Below are positions 1,303 through 30,879 of a stretch of 30,968 bases of DNA, piece by piece (the first letter of the stretch is position 1; every line of letters starts with the position of its first letter). The DNA is from a virus: IMG/VR virus record IMGVR_UViG_3300025872_000203, positions 1 through 30,968 of that record. The stretch is one strand, 5' to 3'. The translations under genes were made by a program, and so were the position numbers. A model generated the notes under the pieces. It was not told where the DNA came from and made no database searches. It saw nothing but the letters and a program-made list of their open reading frames with translations.

Positions 1303-2592
1303 CTACAACCTATCGACCTTTTGAATCCGCTCCCCAATCCACCGCATGACCGGAACCGCCATGCTGTTGCCCAGCGCCCGGTACCGCGGCCCGTCAGCGG
1401 CTGGCTTCTTGCGGTACTCCACCAGCGTGTAATCGTCGGGGAAGCCTTGCAGACGCTCGCACTCGCGGGGCGTGAGGCGACGGACGGCCATTGCTTGCTG
1501 CACCATTGGCGTATTTCGTCCGCTGGCGTTCTGATTGGTGTTCACCGTTCCCATGATCTCAGCGTTGGTGCGAACCTCGCCAAGTTGATTTTGGGCGAAC
1601 GCAACCACGCCGACGCCTTGGTGGCTCCCATCGCTGTGTCCGCTCGCAGGCAGGCAATCCGTGCGGTCGCCGGTCATCCACGCGGGCTGGTTGCTGTAGC
1701 CGCTGTAGGTGAAGCCTTGGGCAACCGCCAACTGCCCGCCTCCGTTAGCATGGCTTCCGCTATGCCCCATCGCCCGCATTGTTGGAGAAACATCATGCGA
1801 GGCATCATCGCCGCAGCCCATCGCGTGCGTCGAGCCGTCAACGCTGCTGATCGGGTCTTGGGTGGGGTGGAAGGCTACGAGGTTGTAGCACTCGTCCCCG
1901 GCTGGGCCTCCGGCTCCCTTGGCCCATTTGCTGCTGACATTTCCAGCGATGCCTTCAGGGCTGGAGGTAATGCCTTGCCCCTTCGCTCCGCGCGTCGGAG
2001 GATTCCCGAACACGCTTTCGCGCTCAAATAGTACCGCTGCGGCACGTCTCCAATCTCCAAGGTAGCCGACAACGAACACACGGCGGCGACGCTGGGCGAC
2101 TCCAAACCATTGAGCGTCAAGAACTCTATAGGCGAACCCATACCCGAGTTCGCCCAACGCCCCGAGGAAGGTTCCAAAATCCCGCCCTTTGCCGCTACTG
2201 AGGACGCCCGGCACGTTTTCCCAAACGATCCATTTGGGCTGCATGACAGCAGCAAGCTGGACGAATCGGAGGGCCAGGTTGCCACGCGGGTCAGCCAATC
2301 CGCCGCGGAGCCCTGCGACCGAGAAGGATTGGCATGGCGTTCCTCCGACAAGAAGTTCAACTGGCGCATCTAGCATTTCCTCCGTGATAGCCGTCATGTC
2401 CCCGAGGTTGCGGAATCCGTAGTGGTGTTCAACCACCGCAGCCGGGAATGGTTCTATTTCGCTCGTCCATTGGCACTGCCAGCCAAGCGGTTGCCAAGCA
2501 ACATGGGCAGCCCCAATGCCATCGCAGACCGATGCGTACCGCATGGCAGAACCAGCCGATGCAACGGACGGCCCAGCGTCGTCATGCGTCAT
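1303..2592 (-). CDS. C5-cytosine DNA methyltransferase
   Basis: A 429-aa protein with the C5-methyltransferase motifs in the usual order. Motif I is YASVCDGIGAAHVAW (SAM binding, about residues 19-33). Motif IV is GGTPCQSFSVAGLRGGL with catalytic Cys87. Motif VI is WENVPG (ENV, about 125-127) and motif VIII is QRRRRVF (about 167-173). The target-recognition region (about 190-370) is rich in Gly, Ser, Asn and His. Motifs IX/X are RRLTPRECERLQGFPDDY and YRALGNSMAVPVMRWI near the C-terminus. It methylates carbon 5 of cytosine at an unknown site. No cognate restriction enzyme is visible, so an orphan enzyme that protects phage DNA is likely. The ATG at 2592 has a GGAGG 7 nt upstream. Composition is a little less GC-rich than the structural genes. 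Confidence 0.95.
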   Translation of the reverse strand: MTHDDAGPSVASAGSAMRYASVCDGIGAAHVAWQPLGWQCQWTSEIEPFPAAVVEHHYGFRNLGDMTAITEEMLDAPVELLVGGTPCQSFSVAGLRGGLADPRGNLALRFVQLAAVMQPKWIVWENVPGVLSSGKGRDFGTFLGALGELGYGFAYRVLDAQWFGVAQRRRRVFVVGYLGDWRRAAAVLFERESVFGNPPTRGAKGQGITSSPEGIAGNVSSKWAKGAGGPAGDECYNLVAFHPTQDPISSVDGSTHAMGCGDDASHDVSPTMRAMGHSGSHANGGGQLAVAQGFTYSGYSNQPAWMTGDRTDCLPASGHSDGSHQGVGVVAFAQNQLGEVRTNAEIMGTVNTNQNASGRNTPMVQQAMAVRRLTPRECERLQGFPDDYTLVEYRKKPAADGPRYRALGNSMAVPVMRWIGERIQKVDRL

Positions 2593-2961: not shown

Positions 2962-3181
2962 GATGGCATCCTCCCTGTTGCGTCGTCTCACCGCGTCGCC
3001 ACTTTGTCGCCTTCACGCGCGACGCGTCGTCGCTCTCGGCCATCCTGCCGGCGAGGTGAGACGCTCGGATCGGCTCGGCACGTCTCGCCACCCACGGCGC
3101 GAGCGCGAGCCCTGCCAGCGATGCCGCCTCTTCGTCGGCCGGTACGGAATCCGGCCAGTCTGGGTCGTACTCGTAGCTCAC
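2954..3181 (-). CDS. Small hypothetical protein
   Basis: A 75-aa protein from a GTG at 3181 that overlaps the TGA of the initiator-like gene in a GTGA junction, which supports translation by coupling. It begins with an acidic stretch (SYEYDPDWPDSVPADEEAASLAGLA in part). A short helix and a basic tail (KATKWRRGETTQQ) follow. I do not recognise a family. The tight overlap with both neighbours is the best evidence that it is real. Confidence 0.55.
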   Translation of the reverse strand: MSYEYDPDWPDSVPADEEAASLAGLALAPWVARRAEPIRASHLAGRMAESDDASRVKATKWRRGETTQQGGCHRG

Positions 3182-4056
3182 GCTCCTGCCTCCTGTTTGA
3201 TCTTCTCGGCCATGGCCCTCTTCGTCCGCTCAAACGCCTCGGCGTCGGCCCCGGTGAACGCTTGGGGCGGTCCTCGGTCCTCGGGTCCGCGGTAGCCGCC
3301 TCGTGCCGGCTTGTCGCGGTCGTTGTCGAACTGCCCGCCGAGGACCTTGTCGACGAATCCGGCCGTCACGAGCTGCGGCAGCGTCACCGGGTCGCGGAAG
3401 TAGCGGCACCGTGGAAGGGCTTCGATCGCCGCCAGGGCCTTCTCGAACCAGCCAGGCTCGGCCAGCCGGTCGGCGGCCTTGTCCGGCGGGTCAGGCAGAT
3501 TCCACGGGCGGCCCTTCCCGGCCTTCCATGCGGCCCGCAGGGCCTCCCAGCCGCCCTGCTCGGGCTCGTGGTCACCTTGCGCAGAAATGTCCCCGAGTTT
3601 CTGCGCAGCCGTTCCGAGGGAAGAAGAAGAATTTCTATCTCCTCTATCTCTTCTCTCTGGTGCGCCGCCGCGCACCGGCCCGTGCGCTTTCGCGCACTGA
3701 CCCGTGCGCGTCCGCGCATCATCGGCCCGAATCGCGTGCATTGCCCGTGATTTCGCGGATTTCGAGAACCGACGCTCCCATCCGGGGATCGCCACAGTTC
3801 CGTTGTCCGCGTCGACGTGCAGCCAGCCGACGGCCTCGACCTCCCGCCAGAACTCCTCGTCGCCGCCACAGACCCGCCCGAGCAGCCGGATCGACATCCG
3901 GGCCGTCCCGTCGGAGCTGTTTAGAGCCGCCCAGCCCCATAGCATGACGAGGCGGCCGACGACCTGGTCCGGCGCGAGGCCGGTCCTGTCGACGAGCTCG
4001 AGGACCTCGGGCTTCTGGGGGAGGCAGACGTCGTAGGGGACCCATTCACCGGCCAT
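3178..4056 (-). CDS. Phage replication-initiator-like protein (winged-helix N-terminus)
   Basis: A 292-aa protein. The ATG at 4056 is chosen because AAGGAGG lies 6 nt upstream; the open frame extends to 4185 without a better site. The N-terminal 110 residues (GEWVPYDVCLPQKPEVLEL, then VVGRLVMLWGWAALNSSDG and FWREVEAVGWLHVD) look like the compact winged-helix domain of phage replisome-organiser/DnaD-like proteins. A low-complexity central linker is Ser-rich (NSSSSLG) and charged. A helical C-terminal part follows (WFEKALAAIEALPRCRYFRDP). Inside the coding sequence are three regularly spaced palindromes beside an AT-richer tract, the layout of a lambda-O-type origin. That supports an initiator role. 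Family recognition by eye is moderate; the gene itself is near certain. Confidence 0.72.
   Translation of the reverse strand: MAGEWVPYDVCLPQKPEVLELVDRTGLAPDQVVGRLVMLWGWAALNSSDGTARMSIRLLGRVCGGDEEFWREVEAVGWLHVDADNGTVAIPGWERRFSKSAKSRAMHAIRADDARTRTGQCAKAHGPVRGGAPERRDRGDRNSSSSLGTAAQKLGDISAQGDHEPEQGGWEALRAAWKAGKGRPWNLPDPPDKAADRLAEPGWFEKALAAIEALPRCRYFRDPVTLPQLVTAGFVDKVLGGQFDNDRDKPARGGYRGPEDRGPPQAFTGADAEAFERTKRAMAEKIKQEAGA
3619..3719. other. Candidate replication origin: three palindromic iterons plus AT-richer tract
   Basis: Three copies of GTGCGC-N4-GCGCAC lie at 3660-3675, 3682-3697 and 3704-3719 (the last copy ends GCGCAT). Each copy starts exactly 22 bp after the previous one. A poorly conserved similar sequence occurs around 3747. 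The 22-bp period is not a multiple of three, so codon repetition in the host gene does not explain it. Beside the array (3619-3659) is a strand-biased, AT-richer purine/pyrimidine tract with repeated GAGATAGA on the minus strand, a plausible unwinding element. The array lies inside the initiator-like gene, as in lambda O. Confidence 0.6.
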
Positions 4057-4126: not shown

Positions 4127-4984
4127 TCAGTCGAGATACCGAAACGGGTCGCATTTCGGAGAGCGGCTAAGCATCGTTCGGTCATCCTTTATCCACCTAT
4201 CGATGCACGCCAATCCGATACACACGGCATCGTGGAAGTGAGTAAAGCCGCCGCCCGACTGCTTCCTGTTGTCGTCGATTGCATTGGCGAAGACCTGGAC
4301 GCAGTCCTGCGTCCTCCCGAGCTTCATGCCAGCGTTTTCCTTGTAGCGCGTGAAAAACTTATCGACTACCTTTCCGTGCTTTTTTCGCGCCATCAAAAAG
4401 CAACAAACCGCGCACCCGATGGCCTTGTCCTTCGGTAAGTTGAGAAGATCGAGAGCGATGATCTCTTCACGAAAGAATCGGACGCCCTCGTGGACATGAG
4501 GCTTCTTTCCTCCTGACGGAACGCTCGAGTTTGTCGCGTATGAGTGCGCCGTTCGGACTGCATTTGTGAAACGGCAACCAGTAACCAAGGACGATTCGGC
4601 GGTGATGCTGCATTCCCGCAAGGCGCCAAAAAGCCTGTCCGTTACGGTTTCAACTTCTTCTTTGCTGTTGAACTGCCCGTACAGTCGCTTAGCCTCGTCC
4701 TCGTCATGGACCAGATACACGCGGACATCGACAGACTCTGGCGCAATGTCAGGCATGTCTGTCCAGACCTTTGCGCGAGTGTGGCCCTCTAGCTTGCACC
4801 TGCCGCCTTCCCATTCGGCCATGTGAACCAGCGTGTGTGCAGACTCAAGTGTGTGCAGGTGCTTCGCAGTTTTTGATCTGCGGTCGGTGTCTCGCTGCCT
4901 AGGGTTGTCTGGAACATTCGCCCATTCTTCCGGCGTCATTGTTGTGATGTAAGTCTCGGCCAGTCCGTTTATCGCAGTAGCCAT
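4127..4984 (-). CDS. ParB/sulfiredoxin-like-fold protein, function unknown
   Basis: A 285-aa protein from the ATG at 4984, which has AAAGGAG 6 nt upstream. Residues about 30-110 carry a strand-helix pattern ending in CKLEGHTRAKVW. This resembles the [LV]-[DE]-G-[HN]-T-R-x-x-x-[WA] motif of ParB-like nuclease/binding folds. It is followed by VRVYLVHDEDEAKRLYGQFNS, as in phage ParB-like proteins. The C-terminal half is helical with several Cys and His (GCAVCCFLMARKKHG). Codon use is visibly less GC-rich than the neighbours, which suggests separate acquisition. It sits between the initiator-like gene and a small early gene. I cannot tell whether it binds DNA, cuts it or acts on NTPs. Confidence 0.7.
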   Translation of the reverse strand: MATAINGLAETYITTMTPEEWANVPDNPRQRDTDRRSKTAKHLHTLESAHTLVHMAEWEGGRCKLEGHTRAKVWTDMPDIAPESVDVRVYLVHDEDEAKRLYGQFNSKEEVETVTDRLFGALRECSITAESSLVTGCRFTNAVRTAHSYATNSSVPSGGKKPHVHEGVRFFREEIIALDLLNLPKDKAIGCAVCCFLMARKKHGKVVDKFFTRYKENAGMKLGRTQDCVQVFANAIDDNRKQSGGGFTHFHDAVCIGLACIDRWIKDDRTMLSRSPKCDPFRYLD

Positions 4985-9412: not shown

Positions 9413-9622
9413 GGCGATCATGCCTCCAATCGTATCGTCACGTCTTTGCAAATCAAACTGTCCGAGCGCCCAGCCCCCGCAAACCGCCAGCCCGGCACGT
9501 CCCGCAGAATCGGAACGGCAGAGCGCCGATAGTTGGGTGCTGGGCAAAGTATGAGTGGAGGCGAGGGGAGTGGAAATCCGTACACTAGTCGGCATGGAAG
9601 CCATGAAAGGAAAAGTGATGCC

Positions 9623-10546
9623 ATGCCGATGCCTATCCGCGATCTATTTGATCGCTACGCGATGCTGCGAGGACTGAACCGAAAGACGATCACGCTCTAC
9701 GTCATGCTTGCCGACCGCCTCGACACGTTTCTCGGGCGGCCCGCTACGTCGACGGACCTGGACGATCTCCAGATCAGTCGATACCTACGCTGGCGAGCGG
9801 AGACTCCAGGCTGGCGCGGCCGCCTGCCGTCTGCGGCGACGGTCCGGAAAGACGCCGTCATGATCAAGGCCGCGTGGACGTATGCCGCGCGGAAGCGAAT
9901 CGTGGCAGAGTTCCCAGAACTGCCGAACATCAAGGTCCCAAAACGAATCCCGACGGGCCGGGCCTACACGATCGACGACGTATCAAAACTGGTACGCCGC
10001 GCGCGGAAACGAATCGGCAAGACAGGTGGCGTTCCATCGTCGTGGTGGTGGTCGACGTTGATCTATGCCGCGGTGACGACCGGCGAGCGCTTCACGGCTT
10101 TGTCGAGCGTCCGCTGGTCGGACGTTGACCTCGAGCGGCTGCGGATCACCTTCCGTGGCGAAACGCGAAAAGGCTCGACCAGAGACATCCAGCGGCAGAT
10201 CACGCCGGAACTCGCAACCATGCTCGCCGAGAATAGCCGAGGGCCGGACGATCTCGTCTGGCCGTGGGATCGTCGGACACGCAGCCAGTGGGCGTCGCTT
10301 CGCCTGCTATGCGACCTGGCACAGGTTCAATATCGAGGGTTCCACGGATTTCGCCGGACGGCGGCCTCATACGCGGCCCTGGCCGGCGGGCGGGCTGCCG
10401 CTACAAGGCTCCTTGATCACAGCGACCCGGCCCTCCAGGCCGTCTATGTCGACGACCTGATCTGCCCGAGTGACGAGAACTCCTGCGCAGCGTTGCCGCC
10501 GTTGAACCTGATCGATCCGCCTCCGGACGTCACGCGTCCGGCGTAG
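9623..10546 (+). CDS. int: Tyrosine recombinase / phage integrase
   Basis: The only confident plus-strand gene (307 aa from the ATG at 9623, with AAAGGA upstream). Residues about 5-95 form the SAM-like core-binding domain (FDRYAMLRGLNRKTITLYVM). The catalytic domain follows. Arg156 lies in TTGERFTAL and Lys183 in the beta-turn TRKGSTRD. His241 and Arg244 form the HGFRR box, His266 is in LLDHSD, and the nucleophile is Tyr275 in QAVYVDD. All catalytic positions are present, so it should be active. It would insert phage DNA at an attachment site that I could not locate. Its 3' end meets the convergent diphosphohydrolase-like gene with a 17-nt overlap. Confidence 0.93.
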   Translation: MPMPIRDLFDRYAMLRGLNRKTITLYVMLADRLDTFLGRPATSTDLDDLQISRYLRWRAETPGWRGRLPSAATVRKDAVMIKAAWTYAARKRIVAEFPELPNIKVPKRIPTGRAYTIDDVSKLVRRARKRIGKTGGVPSSWWWSTLIYAAVTTGERFTALSSVRWSDVDLERLRITFRGETRKGSTRDIQRQITPELATMLAENSRGPDDLVWPWDRRTRSQWASLRLLCDLAQVQYRGFHGFRRTAASYAALAGGRAAATRLLDHSDPALQAVYVDDLICPSDENSCAALPPLNLIDPPPDVTRPA

Positions 10547-13720: not shown

Positions 13721-14526
13721 GGGAGCGGATTGCAGCAGAGATTGGTCGAGTAATTGCAGTTTGCGAAACAGGCCGTGTATTTCTGAATCACGACGCTATG
13801 TGCTCCGTCAAAATCCGACGCGAGGAACTGACTGTACCCCTGCCCTGAGTTGAGCTGTCCATTTGTCCAATAGTAAAGCTGCGACGATCCGCCACAATCG
13901 ACAGTCACACCATTCTGCGAGAACGAAAACGTCGTAGGCGTTGGCAGATGGAAGAACTCGGGACCTCCGCAGCAGCTAAGCGACGCATCGCTTACGCATT
14001 TCCTGTCTTCGGCAGTTTGCGAATAAAACGAAGTTAGGTTGCGCCATCGGTTTCCGCTAGCACCAGCGAATGACGCGCGAAACGTCCACGAGATAAGGCC
14101 TGTTTGCGATTCTGTCGTGTAGTTTATGTCGAGCTGTGCGTATATGTATCGTGCAGGTATTGAGTAAAGTGCAGCGAGCGGAGACGCTGTGTACGTAGTG
14201 TTGTTAAAGTACGATGGGAAAAAATAATAGTTTGAAATAACAAATCCCGAGCCGAGGGCGTAATATCCGCCGTAAGCGTTATTTGAGACACTCTGATAGA
14301 GACCACCGACGGCACCGCATTGGCTTGTTGCGGCGTTTCTTATGCTTGAAGATGGCGTGAAGGTGTATTCGGAACTCCCTGTTGGTTCGCTTCCGGTCAT
14401 ACCGGAAGGTACACCGCACCGAAAATCCCACGATTTGTATCCGTTTACCTCGACCGAATACGGAGCCAGATTCGGAAAACCGCACGGAGCGGCCGTGCAG
14501 CACACACACCCAGGCAAGAGCACCAT
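13717..14526 (-). CDS. Cysteine-rich, Tyr/Ser/Asn-rich tail-region protein
   Basis: A 269-aa protein; the ATG at 14526 overlaps the upstream stop (TGATG). Fourteen cysteines are spread over the chain, including CVCC near the start and TACFANCNYSTNLCCNP at the end. The body is rich in Tyr, Ser, Thr, Asn and Gly with few charges (SNNAYGGYYALGSGFVISN). This suggests an extended beta-structure with disulfides rather than an enzyme. Local composition falls well below the surrounding GC (lowest about 14150-14260), which suggests recent exchange, as in host-range genes. The position at the end of the tail block fits a tip or receptor-binding protein, but this is inferred. No catalytic motif is seen. 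Confidence 0.65.
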   Translation of the reverse strand: MVLLPGCVCCTAAPCGFPNLAPYSVEVNGYKSWDFRCGVPSGMTGSEPTGSSEYTFTPSSSIRNAATSQCGAVGGLYQSVSNNAYGGYYALGSGFVISNYYFFPSYFNNTTYTASPLAALYSIPARYIYAQLDINYTTESQTGLISWTFRASFAGASGNRWRNLTSFYSQTAEDRKCVSDASLSCCGGPEFFHLPTPTTFSFSQNGVTVDCGGSSQLYYWTNGQLNSGQGYSQFLASDFDGAHSVVIQKYTACFANCNYSTNLCCNPLP

Positions 14527-29245: not shown

Positions 29246-29678
29246 GGTTGACCTCCATTCCAGCCCGCGCCGAAGGCGTTAGGCCGTACTCCTGCTCGAT
29301 CCGGAGCATCGACTGGGCCAGCTTGACGAACATCGTCGCGGCCGGCGTCGATTGCATGTACTTCACCTTCCCGTCCTTGTCGCGGATCACGAGTACGTCG
29401 AGACCGCGGCGGATCTGGTCGAGGTAGCGCACCCACTGCTCGTACATCGCACAGTAGCGGCCGATCGCTTCGGTGTCGGCCGTCGTGATCAGACCCATCG
29501 CCTCGAGCTGCGGGACGACCTCGTCCCACTTTTCGCGAGCCTTGCCGGTCACCCATGCCGGGGCGACGACGGCCCCGGCCGGCGGGACCGGCTCGTCGGC
29601 GTGTTTGCCTTCCTTCGACGGGTCGCCGCGAAGAAGGCGGAGCTTCGTCGGCTGTTTACGCGGTCCGCGTTTTCCCAT
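29196..29678 (-). CDS. terS: Terminase small subunit, P27 family
   Basis: A 160-aa protein. It starts MGKRGPRKQPTKLRLLRGDP, the characteristic P27-type N-terminus, then PAWVTGKAREKWDEVVPQLE and GLITTADTEAIGRYCAMYEQ. The C-terminal half has LAQSMLRIEQEYGLTPSARA, the P27 'GLTPSAR' signature. It recognises the packaging site and loads TerL. Its start overlaps the methyltransferase stop. Confidence 0.93.
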   Translation of the reverse strand: MGKRGPRKQPTKLRLLRGDPSKEGKHADEPVPPAGAVVAPAWVTGKAREKWDEVVPQLEAMGLITTADTEAIGRYCAMYEQWVRYLDQIRRGLDVLVIRDKDGKVKYMQSTPAATMFVKLAQSMLRIEQEYGLTPSARAGMEVNRGEVRDTLQAFIEGRA

Positions 29679-30879
29679 GCGTCACCTCCTCGCGGGTCGC
29701 CTTCTTGCCGGTCAGTGTCTCCCACCGCTTCACGATCACATCGCAATACTGCGGGCTGATCTCCATGCCGTAGCACTTGCGGCCCAGTTGCTCGGCGGCG
29801 ATCAGCGTGGTGCCGGAGCCGCAGAATGGGTCGTACACAATCTCGCCTTGCCGCGATCCGTCCGTAACGGCCTGCGCCCAAAGGGCGACCGGCTTCATTG
29901 TGGGATGTTCGCGGTTAGCCTTGGGCCGGTCGTACTCCCAAAGCGTGGTCCGCGTGCGGTCAGAGTTTTTGTGGCGGTCGCCTGGAATCCACCCAAACAG
30001 GATCGGCTCGTGCTGGTAGTGGTACTCGCTGTGCCCAAGCACCATCGAGTCCTTGGCCCAAACCATGATCTGCCGCAGGATGCCTCGCCGCTTCCAATCG
30101 TCGGCAAAAAGAATATGCAACGGTCCCGCCGGGACCGTTGCATACCAGTAGGCACCGGCACGACAGCTTGCCTCGGCATTGTCAAAAGCCGCTACAACGA
30201 GTGCTGTCAGGTCTTCCTCGTCAAGCTCGTCGTTTTCGACCTTCAGGGCATCCTTCGTCTTGCCGACGTAGGAGACGCCGTAGGGCGGGTCGCTGAGAAC
30301 CATGTCAGCCTGCCCCCCCCCCATAAGTTTCCCAACCTGCGCCGCGTCGGTTGAGTCGCCGCAGAGCAGGCGATGCTCTCCAAGAATCCACAGGTCGCCC
30401 GGCTTCGTGATCGGATCGACCGGCGGCTCGGGGATCTCGTCCTCGACGATTTCTTTCGCGTTGTCCTTGTAGAGGTCCGCCGCGTCGGCCAGGTCGGAAT
30501 ACATCTGCTGCAGCCCCTCGCTGCCGGTGTCTACTTCGCGGAGCAGTGAGTCGAGGGCCGCGGCGTTTGTCTCGGCCAGGGCCGCGAGCGGGTCGAGCGA
30601 CAGGAGCAGCTTGTCGGCCTCGGCCTCGTCGATGTCCAGGACTAGGACCGGGACCTCCTGATCGGGCGTCGTCTCGGCCCGGAGGTGGCCGTCGACCAGC
30701 ATCAGCGACCCGTCGGGCAGCTCGCGGGCGAGCAGGGCGTCGGCGTATCCGACCTCGGCCAGTATCCCGCGAAGGGCGTCGGCCTGGGCCTTCGGGTGGG
30801 TTCGCCAGTTTTTCGGGTTCGGCGTCAGGTCGCCGGCCCTGACGCGGCGTAGCTCGCGGACGCGGTCTCGGATCTGCAT
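29656..30879 (-). CDS. ParB-like domain fused to DNA (N6-adenine or N4-cytosine) methyltransferase
   Basis: A 407-aa protein, ATG 30879 with GGAGG 6 nt upstream. Residues 1-100 are ParB-like (AGDLTPNPKNWRTHP and LMLVDGHLRAET). The methyltransferase follows with catalytic DPPYG at 197-201 before the SAM-binding FCGSGTT at 352-358, the beta-class order. EYHYQHEPILFGW and HPTMKPVALW are other landmarks. This architecture is widespread beside phage terminase genes and modifies phage DNA. The C-terminal half has less GC-rich codon use. It contains a G10 run and a 31-nt palindrome in the coding sequence. The modified base (adenine or N4-cytosine) is not decided. Confidence 0.92.
   Translation of the reverse strand: MQIRDRVRELRRVRAGDLTPNPKNWRTHPKAQADALRGILAEVGYADALLARELPDGSLMLVDGHLRAETTPDQEVPVLVLDIDEAEADKLLLSLDPLAALAETNAAALDSLLREVDTGSEGLQQMYSDLADAADLYKDNAKEIVEDEIPEPPVDPITKPGDLWILGEHRLLCGDSTDAAQVGKLMGGGQADMVLSDPPYGVSYVGKTKDALKVENDELDEEDLTALVVAAFDNAEASCRAGAYWYATVPAGPLHILFADDWKRRGILRQIMVWAKDSMVLGHSEYHYQHEPILFGWIPGDRHKNSDRTRTTLWEYDRPKANREHPTMKPVALWAQAVTDGSRQGEIVYDPFCGSGTTLIAAEQLGRKCYGMEISPQYCDVIVKRWETLTGKKATREEVTHGKTRTA
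30114..30144. repeat. 31-nt perfect inverted repeat inside the methyltransferase gene
   Basis: TATGCAACGGTCCCG (30114-30128) and CGGGACCGTTGCATA (30130-30144) match as exact reverse complements around one base. It lies in a coding segment (ATVPAGPLH). Confidence 0.85.
30313..30322 (-). repeat. Ten-G homopolymer in the methyltransferase gene
   Basis: The coding strand reads ATG plus nine G (10 G in all), encoding M-G-G-G at 186-189, eight residues before DPPY. Length change by one base would shift the frame before the active site. Confidence 0.8.

Follow-up and report, generated by a model that had tools for sequence, protein, structure and literature searches.

A probable iteron-type replication origin embedded in the gene for its own initiator in a family of phages

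Palindromes and a polypurine tract within an initiator-like gene

The window, the 30,968-nucleotide stretch of viral DNA analysed here (IMG/VR record IMGVR_UViG_3300025872_000203), carries on its minus strand a gene for a 292-aa protein whose residues 1-123 match the profile of the replication initiation family PHROG_2509 (E 1.8e-22; Table 1). Just positions 1-121 of the 277 in the profile are matched, and the C-terminal part of the protein differs. A Pfam search gave no match even at E 10, with lambda O itself scoring 5.7e-36 in the control search with PF04492, and no match to solved structures was obtained with phmmer. An AlphaFold2 model of the N-domain, built with 63 sequences, has a mean pLDDT of 85.8 (about 67-96 per 10-residue block across residues 1-100) and predicts a winged helix at residues 16-95 followed by a helix at 99-124, the 3´ half of which is encoded by the palindromic DNA described below. 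Foldseek found no match to this model in the PDB at E<0.001. With VIA-align, the top neighbours were the N-domains of the RepA_N initiators 4pql and 5kbj, a middling match (Z 6.6, rmsd 4.8-5.2 over 90 residues), with 4pta at Z 6.0. The full-length model is poor (mean pLDDT 56), and its low-confidence stretch beyond the helix, residues 119-171, fits what would be expected of a tolerant linker. The C-terminal part probably provides the contact to the replication machinery.

Table 1. Positions of the origin-like element, the parts of the initiator gene and other features of the window
Feature	Position	Strand	Basis or remark
Initiator gene, 292 aa, PHROG_2509 replication initiation protein	3178..4056	-	Translation and profile match
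Winged-helix N-terminal domain, codons 1-97	3766..4056	-	AlphaFold2 model
Long helix after winged helix, codons 99-124	3685..3762	-	AlphaFold2 model
Class-diagnostic residues 107 and 111, in helix 99-124	3736-3738 and 3724-3726	-	Class comparison, 57 sequences
C-terminal part, codons 165-292, conserved whatever the iteron class	3181..3564	-	Identity within and between classes
Iteron 1 (sense order), one mismatch	3704-3719		GTGCGCGTCCGCGCAT on + strand; sequence reading
Iteron 2, perfect	3682-3697		GTGCGCTTTCGCGCAC; sequence reading
Iteron 3, perfect, adjoins tract	3660-3675		GTGCGCCGCCGCGCAC; sequence reading
AT-richer polypurine (sense strand) tract, probable duplex-unwinding element	3620-3659		Stability rank and synonymous constraint
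Perfect 10-bp inverted repeat TGCGCAGAAA/TTTCTGCGCA with 10-nt spacer, beyond tract	3578-3607		Sequence reading
C5 cytosine methyltransferase gene	1303-2592	-	Catalytic part nearest HhaI; absent from 13 relatives' records
Gene upstream of initiator, PHROG_2615	4127-4984	-	No counterpart in relatives' flanks
Tyrosine-integrase-like gene	9533-10546	+	Opposite strand to other identified genes
ParB-like domain apparently fused to DNA methyltransferase domain	about 29656-30879	-	PHROG_498, 8071

Codons 113-133 of the gene contain an array of palindromes at a spacing of exactly 22 bp. A preliminary description of this DNA had given them as three copies of GTGCGC-N4-GCGCAC, which holds for two; the third departs from the pattern by a single mismatch, at its last base. 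The description had also argued that the pitch excludes a protein repeat, and the three units indeed each lie in a different reading frame, so a protein repeat cannot account for them. An equal-pitch triple whose arms agree at 11/12 positions occurs once in the window, and the best equal-pitch palindrome triple in 40 Markov simulations of the window reached 3/12 identical arm columns, versus the 11 observed. When the peptide was held fixed and synonymous codons were redrawn, one of 200,000 draws attained the observed 17/18 paired arm positions, and two of 200,000 attained the observed identity among the palindrome copies.

In the sense direction, the palindromes are directly followed by AGAGAGAAGAGATAGAGGAGATAGAAATTCTTCTTC, which includes the AT-richer 40-bp polypurine tract that had been noted beside them. 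The tract has 38% GC versus 65% genome-wide and ranks second for low duplex stability among all non-overlapping 40-bp stretches of the 31-kb window. GC skew, proposed as a check, is weak and has no turning point near 3.7 kb; since the record is a fragment, this speaks neither for nor against an origin there.

Several other features of the window were noted. The inverted repeat beyond the tract folds as a stem in computed folding of the single strand and, besides the window, is present only in relative L065, where one pair is changed on both sides in a compensating manner; it is possibly incidental. Positions 14109-14300 (GC 0.23-0.40), where the window reaches its highest AT content and lowest stability, lie within or beside a 302-aa ORF without a PHROG match and are a possible late acquisition. 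The PHROG_2615 gene is possibly an inserted moron-type gene. The tetranucleotide GCGC occurs at 0.33 of the Markov expectation across window positions 1-30968 and is also depleted in most relatives, yet the 60-bp array holds six copies; AATT, at 0.12 of expectation, occurs twice in the window, one copy being in the tract. The integrase is also found in 12 of the 13 relatives' records, yet no relative was confirmed in cellular genomes by a pattern scan.

Half-site classes and constraint at the level of DNA

We collected 57 distinct full-length genes, the window's included, from two scans of viral contigs; the set holds near-copies and is thus not 57 independent observations. The array lies at the same gene position in all 57, with three to five units per array (some imperfect), and is followed by a polypurine tract that is nearly identical throughout, whatever the iteron class. 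Three half-site classes were distinguished: class A, GTGCGC (arms GTGCGC/GCGCAC, 24 genes); class B, GGGCGC (arms GGGCGC/GCGCCC, 28 genes); and class C, ACGCGC (arms ACGCGC/GCGCGT, five genes). The pitch is 22 bp in classes A and B and 21/22 bp in class C. The arms vary in pairs, on both sides together, and the loops are free, with 20 different tetraloops within class A alone. Palindromes of these classes occur 132 times within the initiator genes versus not once in 428,846 flanking bases. The array and its pitch are therefore kept in relatives while the arm sequence and the encoded amino acids change, as the preliminary description had anticipated for an origin. The case it had named as contrary, a relative with the protein but without the palindromes, was not found among the 57 full-length genes.

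Codon comparisons indicate that the constraint over the iterons and tract acts on the DNA. Synonymous differences are at 0.04-0.41 of the expected level in codons 111-160, compared with 0.36-0.93 (mostly 0.5-0.8) elsewhere in the gene; within this interval the iterons give 0.17-0.41 and the tract (codons 136-145) gives 0.04. The synonymous sites just before, in codons 101-110, are free to vary, at 0.84 of the expected level. The rare codons AGA, TCT, GAT and AAT are kept in the tract; in the rest of the gene AGA makes up 1% of Arg codons and TCT 4.5% of Ser codons. In an independent set of 68 distant genes with another type of half-site (class D), synonymous variation dips to 0.06-0.11 at the equivalent place.

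Distant homologues, in the replication initiation families PHROG_2509 and PHROG_9474, belong to gammaproteobacterial phages and include Escherichia TL-2011b, Pseudomonas VW-6S, PAN70, Xanthomonas Olaya, CP2 and the Rac-type prophage of strain 442/2. The order of parts within the gene is the same, a winged helix, a basic helix, half-sites and a polypurine tract such as AGAGAAGAGAAGAGAAGATATA. A generic period search was mostly without result here because the half-sites are in mixed orientation, and they were recognised by reading the sequence directly. Across 113 class-D genes, the 23.7 kb of the half-site segment contain GTAAC/GTTAC 405 times, versus 287 times in the remaining 64 kb, with the half-sites in the order >><< and spaced 12, 12 and 11 bp apart. 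Two further classes, each resting on few sequences, have TGTCAC/GTGACA (L294 and L303) and TGTCCGC/GCGGACA half-sites (L314 and L315); in L314 the sites and helix are distinct, yet the sequence downstream is shared with the class-D gene L311. Among 5,426 complete E. coli genomes, 775 carry a related element. We found no description of these iterons, or of DUF1376/YdaU origins, in the open literature, outside which most subscription papers lie.

Joint change of site and protein, and readings of the array

Two residues follow the half-site class without exception in the 57 sequences. At position 107, every class A protein has H, class B proteins have A, S or T and class C proteins have E; at position 111, the three classes have A, H and N, respectively. 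Identity over residues 105-112 is 0.78 within classes versus 0.41 between them, compared with 0.86 versus 0.83 for residues 1-97 and 0.74 versus 0.72 for the C-terminal part, and none of the three neighbouring genes for which a test was possible tracked the iteron class. The best trees need seven class changes with N-terminal codons and 15 with C-terminal codons, of which well-supported branches force two to five, and class A as a single clade is rejected (AU p 5e-11 for the C-terminal tree, p 0.026 for the N-terminal tree). Together, these results establish that a cassette consisting of the helix end and the iterons has been exchanged repeatedly.

We consider it probable, at roughly 0.84, that the 100-bp element is an iteron origin of replication lying inside the gene that encodes its initiator, as the preliminary description had suggested; the conserved array, the suppressed synonymous variation and the name of the protein family all point this way. 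In the mechanism that we infer, each palindrome would serve as an iteron to which the 292-aa protein binds as a dimer, using the N-terminal winged helix and the helix that follows. Given that half-sites recur about once per helical turn, bound dimers would be aligned on one face of the DNA, stacked along the array with one half-site per turn. This protein-DNA array could then strain and open the adjoining AT-richer polypurine tract, where the C-terminal part would bring in replication machinery, probably the host helicase. No DnaB-type helicase and no IstB/DnaC-type loader were found in the 14 records, which may be fragments, and the involvement of a helicase is therefore conjecture. Iterons and the class-specific helix segment would be inherited as one cassette and exchanged between phages, such that binding specificity and binding site change together.

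How the sites are read is a separate matter. Residues 107 and 111 may read the half-sites by direct contact with the outer base pairs. We lean towards regarding the PHROG_2509 family as a case of natural origin re-targeting, in which one winged-helix scaffold would be combined with an exchanged cassette of up to about 50 codons; residues 107, 111 and 114/115 would form a readable recognition code, the half-sites, of which at least six kinds were observed, would always change with the recognition residues, and the tract and the rest of the protein would stay. Close linkage alone could also yield a perfect association, since residues 107 and 111 adjoin the iterons. A less favoured but possible alternative is an origin for whose specificity the winged helix or other residues are responsible: the diagnostic codons lie within about 50 bp of the iterons, and independent supported class switches are few (the phylogenetically independent pairs on well-supported branches number two and four, all concordant and too few for significance). 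Against it, the classes are nearly alike over residues 1-97, residue 107 is constant or almost constant within each class while codons 101-110 are synonymously free, and residues 107 and 111 belong to a predicted helix that continues from the DNA-binding fold.

Other functions of the array appear improbable to different degrees. Phased arrays are also possible for repressors, and this array lies within a transcribed gene, so that what the initiator binds might be an operator or silencer keeping down the expression of the initiator gene itself or of genes downstream. We regard this as unlikely given that the array is in mid-gene and not at a promoter (no sigma-70-like promoter was found around it), that it is coupled to an unstable tract common to all classes, and that the flanks have no additional copy of the palindrome at a promoter. 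The ParB-like domain that, elsewhere in the window, appears joined to a methyltransferase might suggest that the array serves partition, packaging or another cis function and simply accompanies the initiator gene. The tracking of class with residues 107 and 111 and not with the three neighbouring genes tested, as well as the retention of the array in the same gene in distant homologues, makes this quite improbable.

Hairpins in the mRNA that control translation or transcription seem hardly credible as an explanation of the palindromes. The sense strand does fold well as a single strand (DNA parameters, z -6.8), but any palindromic DNA site will do so when folded computationally; furthermore, the loops are unconstrained while the pitch is fixed, the >><< order of class-D half-sites at 11-12 bp is unlike simple hairpins, and an Rfam search matched no family. 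Equally far-fetched is a SeqA/Dam-like control of the origin in which the phage's own C5-methyltransferase would methylate GCGC in the iterons. Each arm contains GCGC, the motif is depleted threefold in the window, and HhaI is the nearest solved structure to the window methyltransferase (catalytic part only), yet the enzyme gene is peculiar to the window among 14 records with the same kind of array, GCGC depletion is general in relatives, and the half-sites of the distant classes lack GCGC. GCGC methylation was rejected as a general mechanism, with a C5-methyltransferase in one of the 14 records.

If the origin reading is true, an origin would be mapped to about 100 bp in many genomes, E. coli prophages included, and an initiator family annotated merely as "replication initiation" or "hypothetical" would gain a mapped origin. 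As a short exchanged piece would hold both site and reader, sequence could serve to predict incompatibility between co-infecting phages, and the rule of protein-DNA recognition could be tested directly with a few purified N-domains. The main value would be a natural set of swapped specificities.

Comparison with known initiators and their origins

The mechanism is most likely similar to those of lambda O/ori-lambda and the RepA_N plasmids, though the protein is in neither Pfam family. In lambda, dimers of the O protein attach to the inverted-repeat iterons within gene O, and a 40-bp A+T-rich region opens (PMC5043065). The lambda-O-like character given to the element at the outset thus stands for the layout: as in lambda (PF04492, PHROG_277), dyad iterons lie inside the initiator's own gene after an N-terminal DNA-binding domain, and an A-rich or purine-rich tract is directly downstream of them in the sense direction. 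It does not extend to family membership, as the window protein has no PF04492 match. The exact 22-bp pitch and short GC-rich arms also differ from lambda, where the iterons annotated at 39034, 39054, 39078 and 39101 start 20, 24 and 23 bp apart. In addition, no DnaC-like loader gene was found beside the window initiator, the downstream ORFs resembling other things, and, unlike in lambda, several half-site classes are naturally swapped within one close family.

In the RepA_N initiator RepA of pSK41, a winged-helix N-domain binds Rep boxes central in rep and the encoded linker is dispensable (PMC5703833); in the natural chimera pPR9, the N-domain plus origin has been exchanged (PMC5703833). The window gene shares with this group (pSK41, pTZ2162; PF06970) an origin-like array central in the gene, and RepA_N N-domains rank first in structural comparison, albeit with the middling score given above. 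The window protein differs in having no match to PF06970 at E 10 and in the smaller size of the exchanged piece, which comprises the helix end and iterons and not the whole N-domain.

The PHROG_2509/PHROG_9474 phages (TL-2011b, Rac-type 442/2, VW-6S, Olaya and CP2) share the N-terminal family and the position of array and polypurine tract with the window. They differ in having GTAACGC, TGTCAC or TGTCCGC half-sites, versus GC-only in the window, in the >><< orientation of class D versus the alternating one of the window, and in C-terminal domains that vary among the proteins (DnaT-like in VW-6S). The Rac prophage of E. coli K-12 has a functional origin, oriJ (PMC3945230). K-12 Rac has an initiator-like gene, ydaU, followed by a DnaC-like (IstB family) gene, and in mid-gene ydaU has inverted TGTTCAAAC/GTTTGAACA sites and a purine-rich stretch (L389:5480-5640), which we suggest as a candidate location of oriJ. 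YdaU belongs to another Pfam family (DUF1376, PF07120), to which the window protein has no match; the Rac protein of strain 442/2 (MN652886) was ruled out as its equivalent for the same reason, YdaU being DUF1376. Overall, the window has the general layout of iteron origins, with several phased putative sites beside an AT-rich unstable element. This layout is familiar; what sets the element apart is a pitch of exactly two helical turns, a tract that does not depend on class and the repeated swapping of site plus reader.
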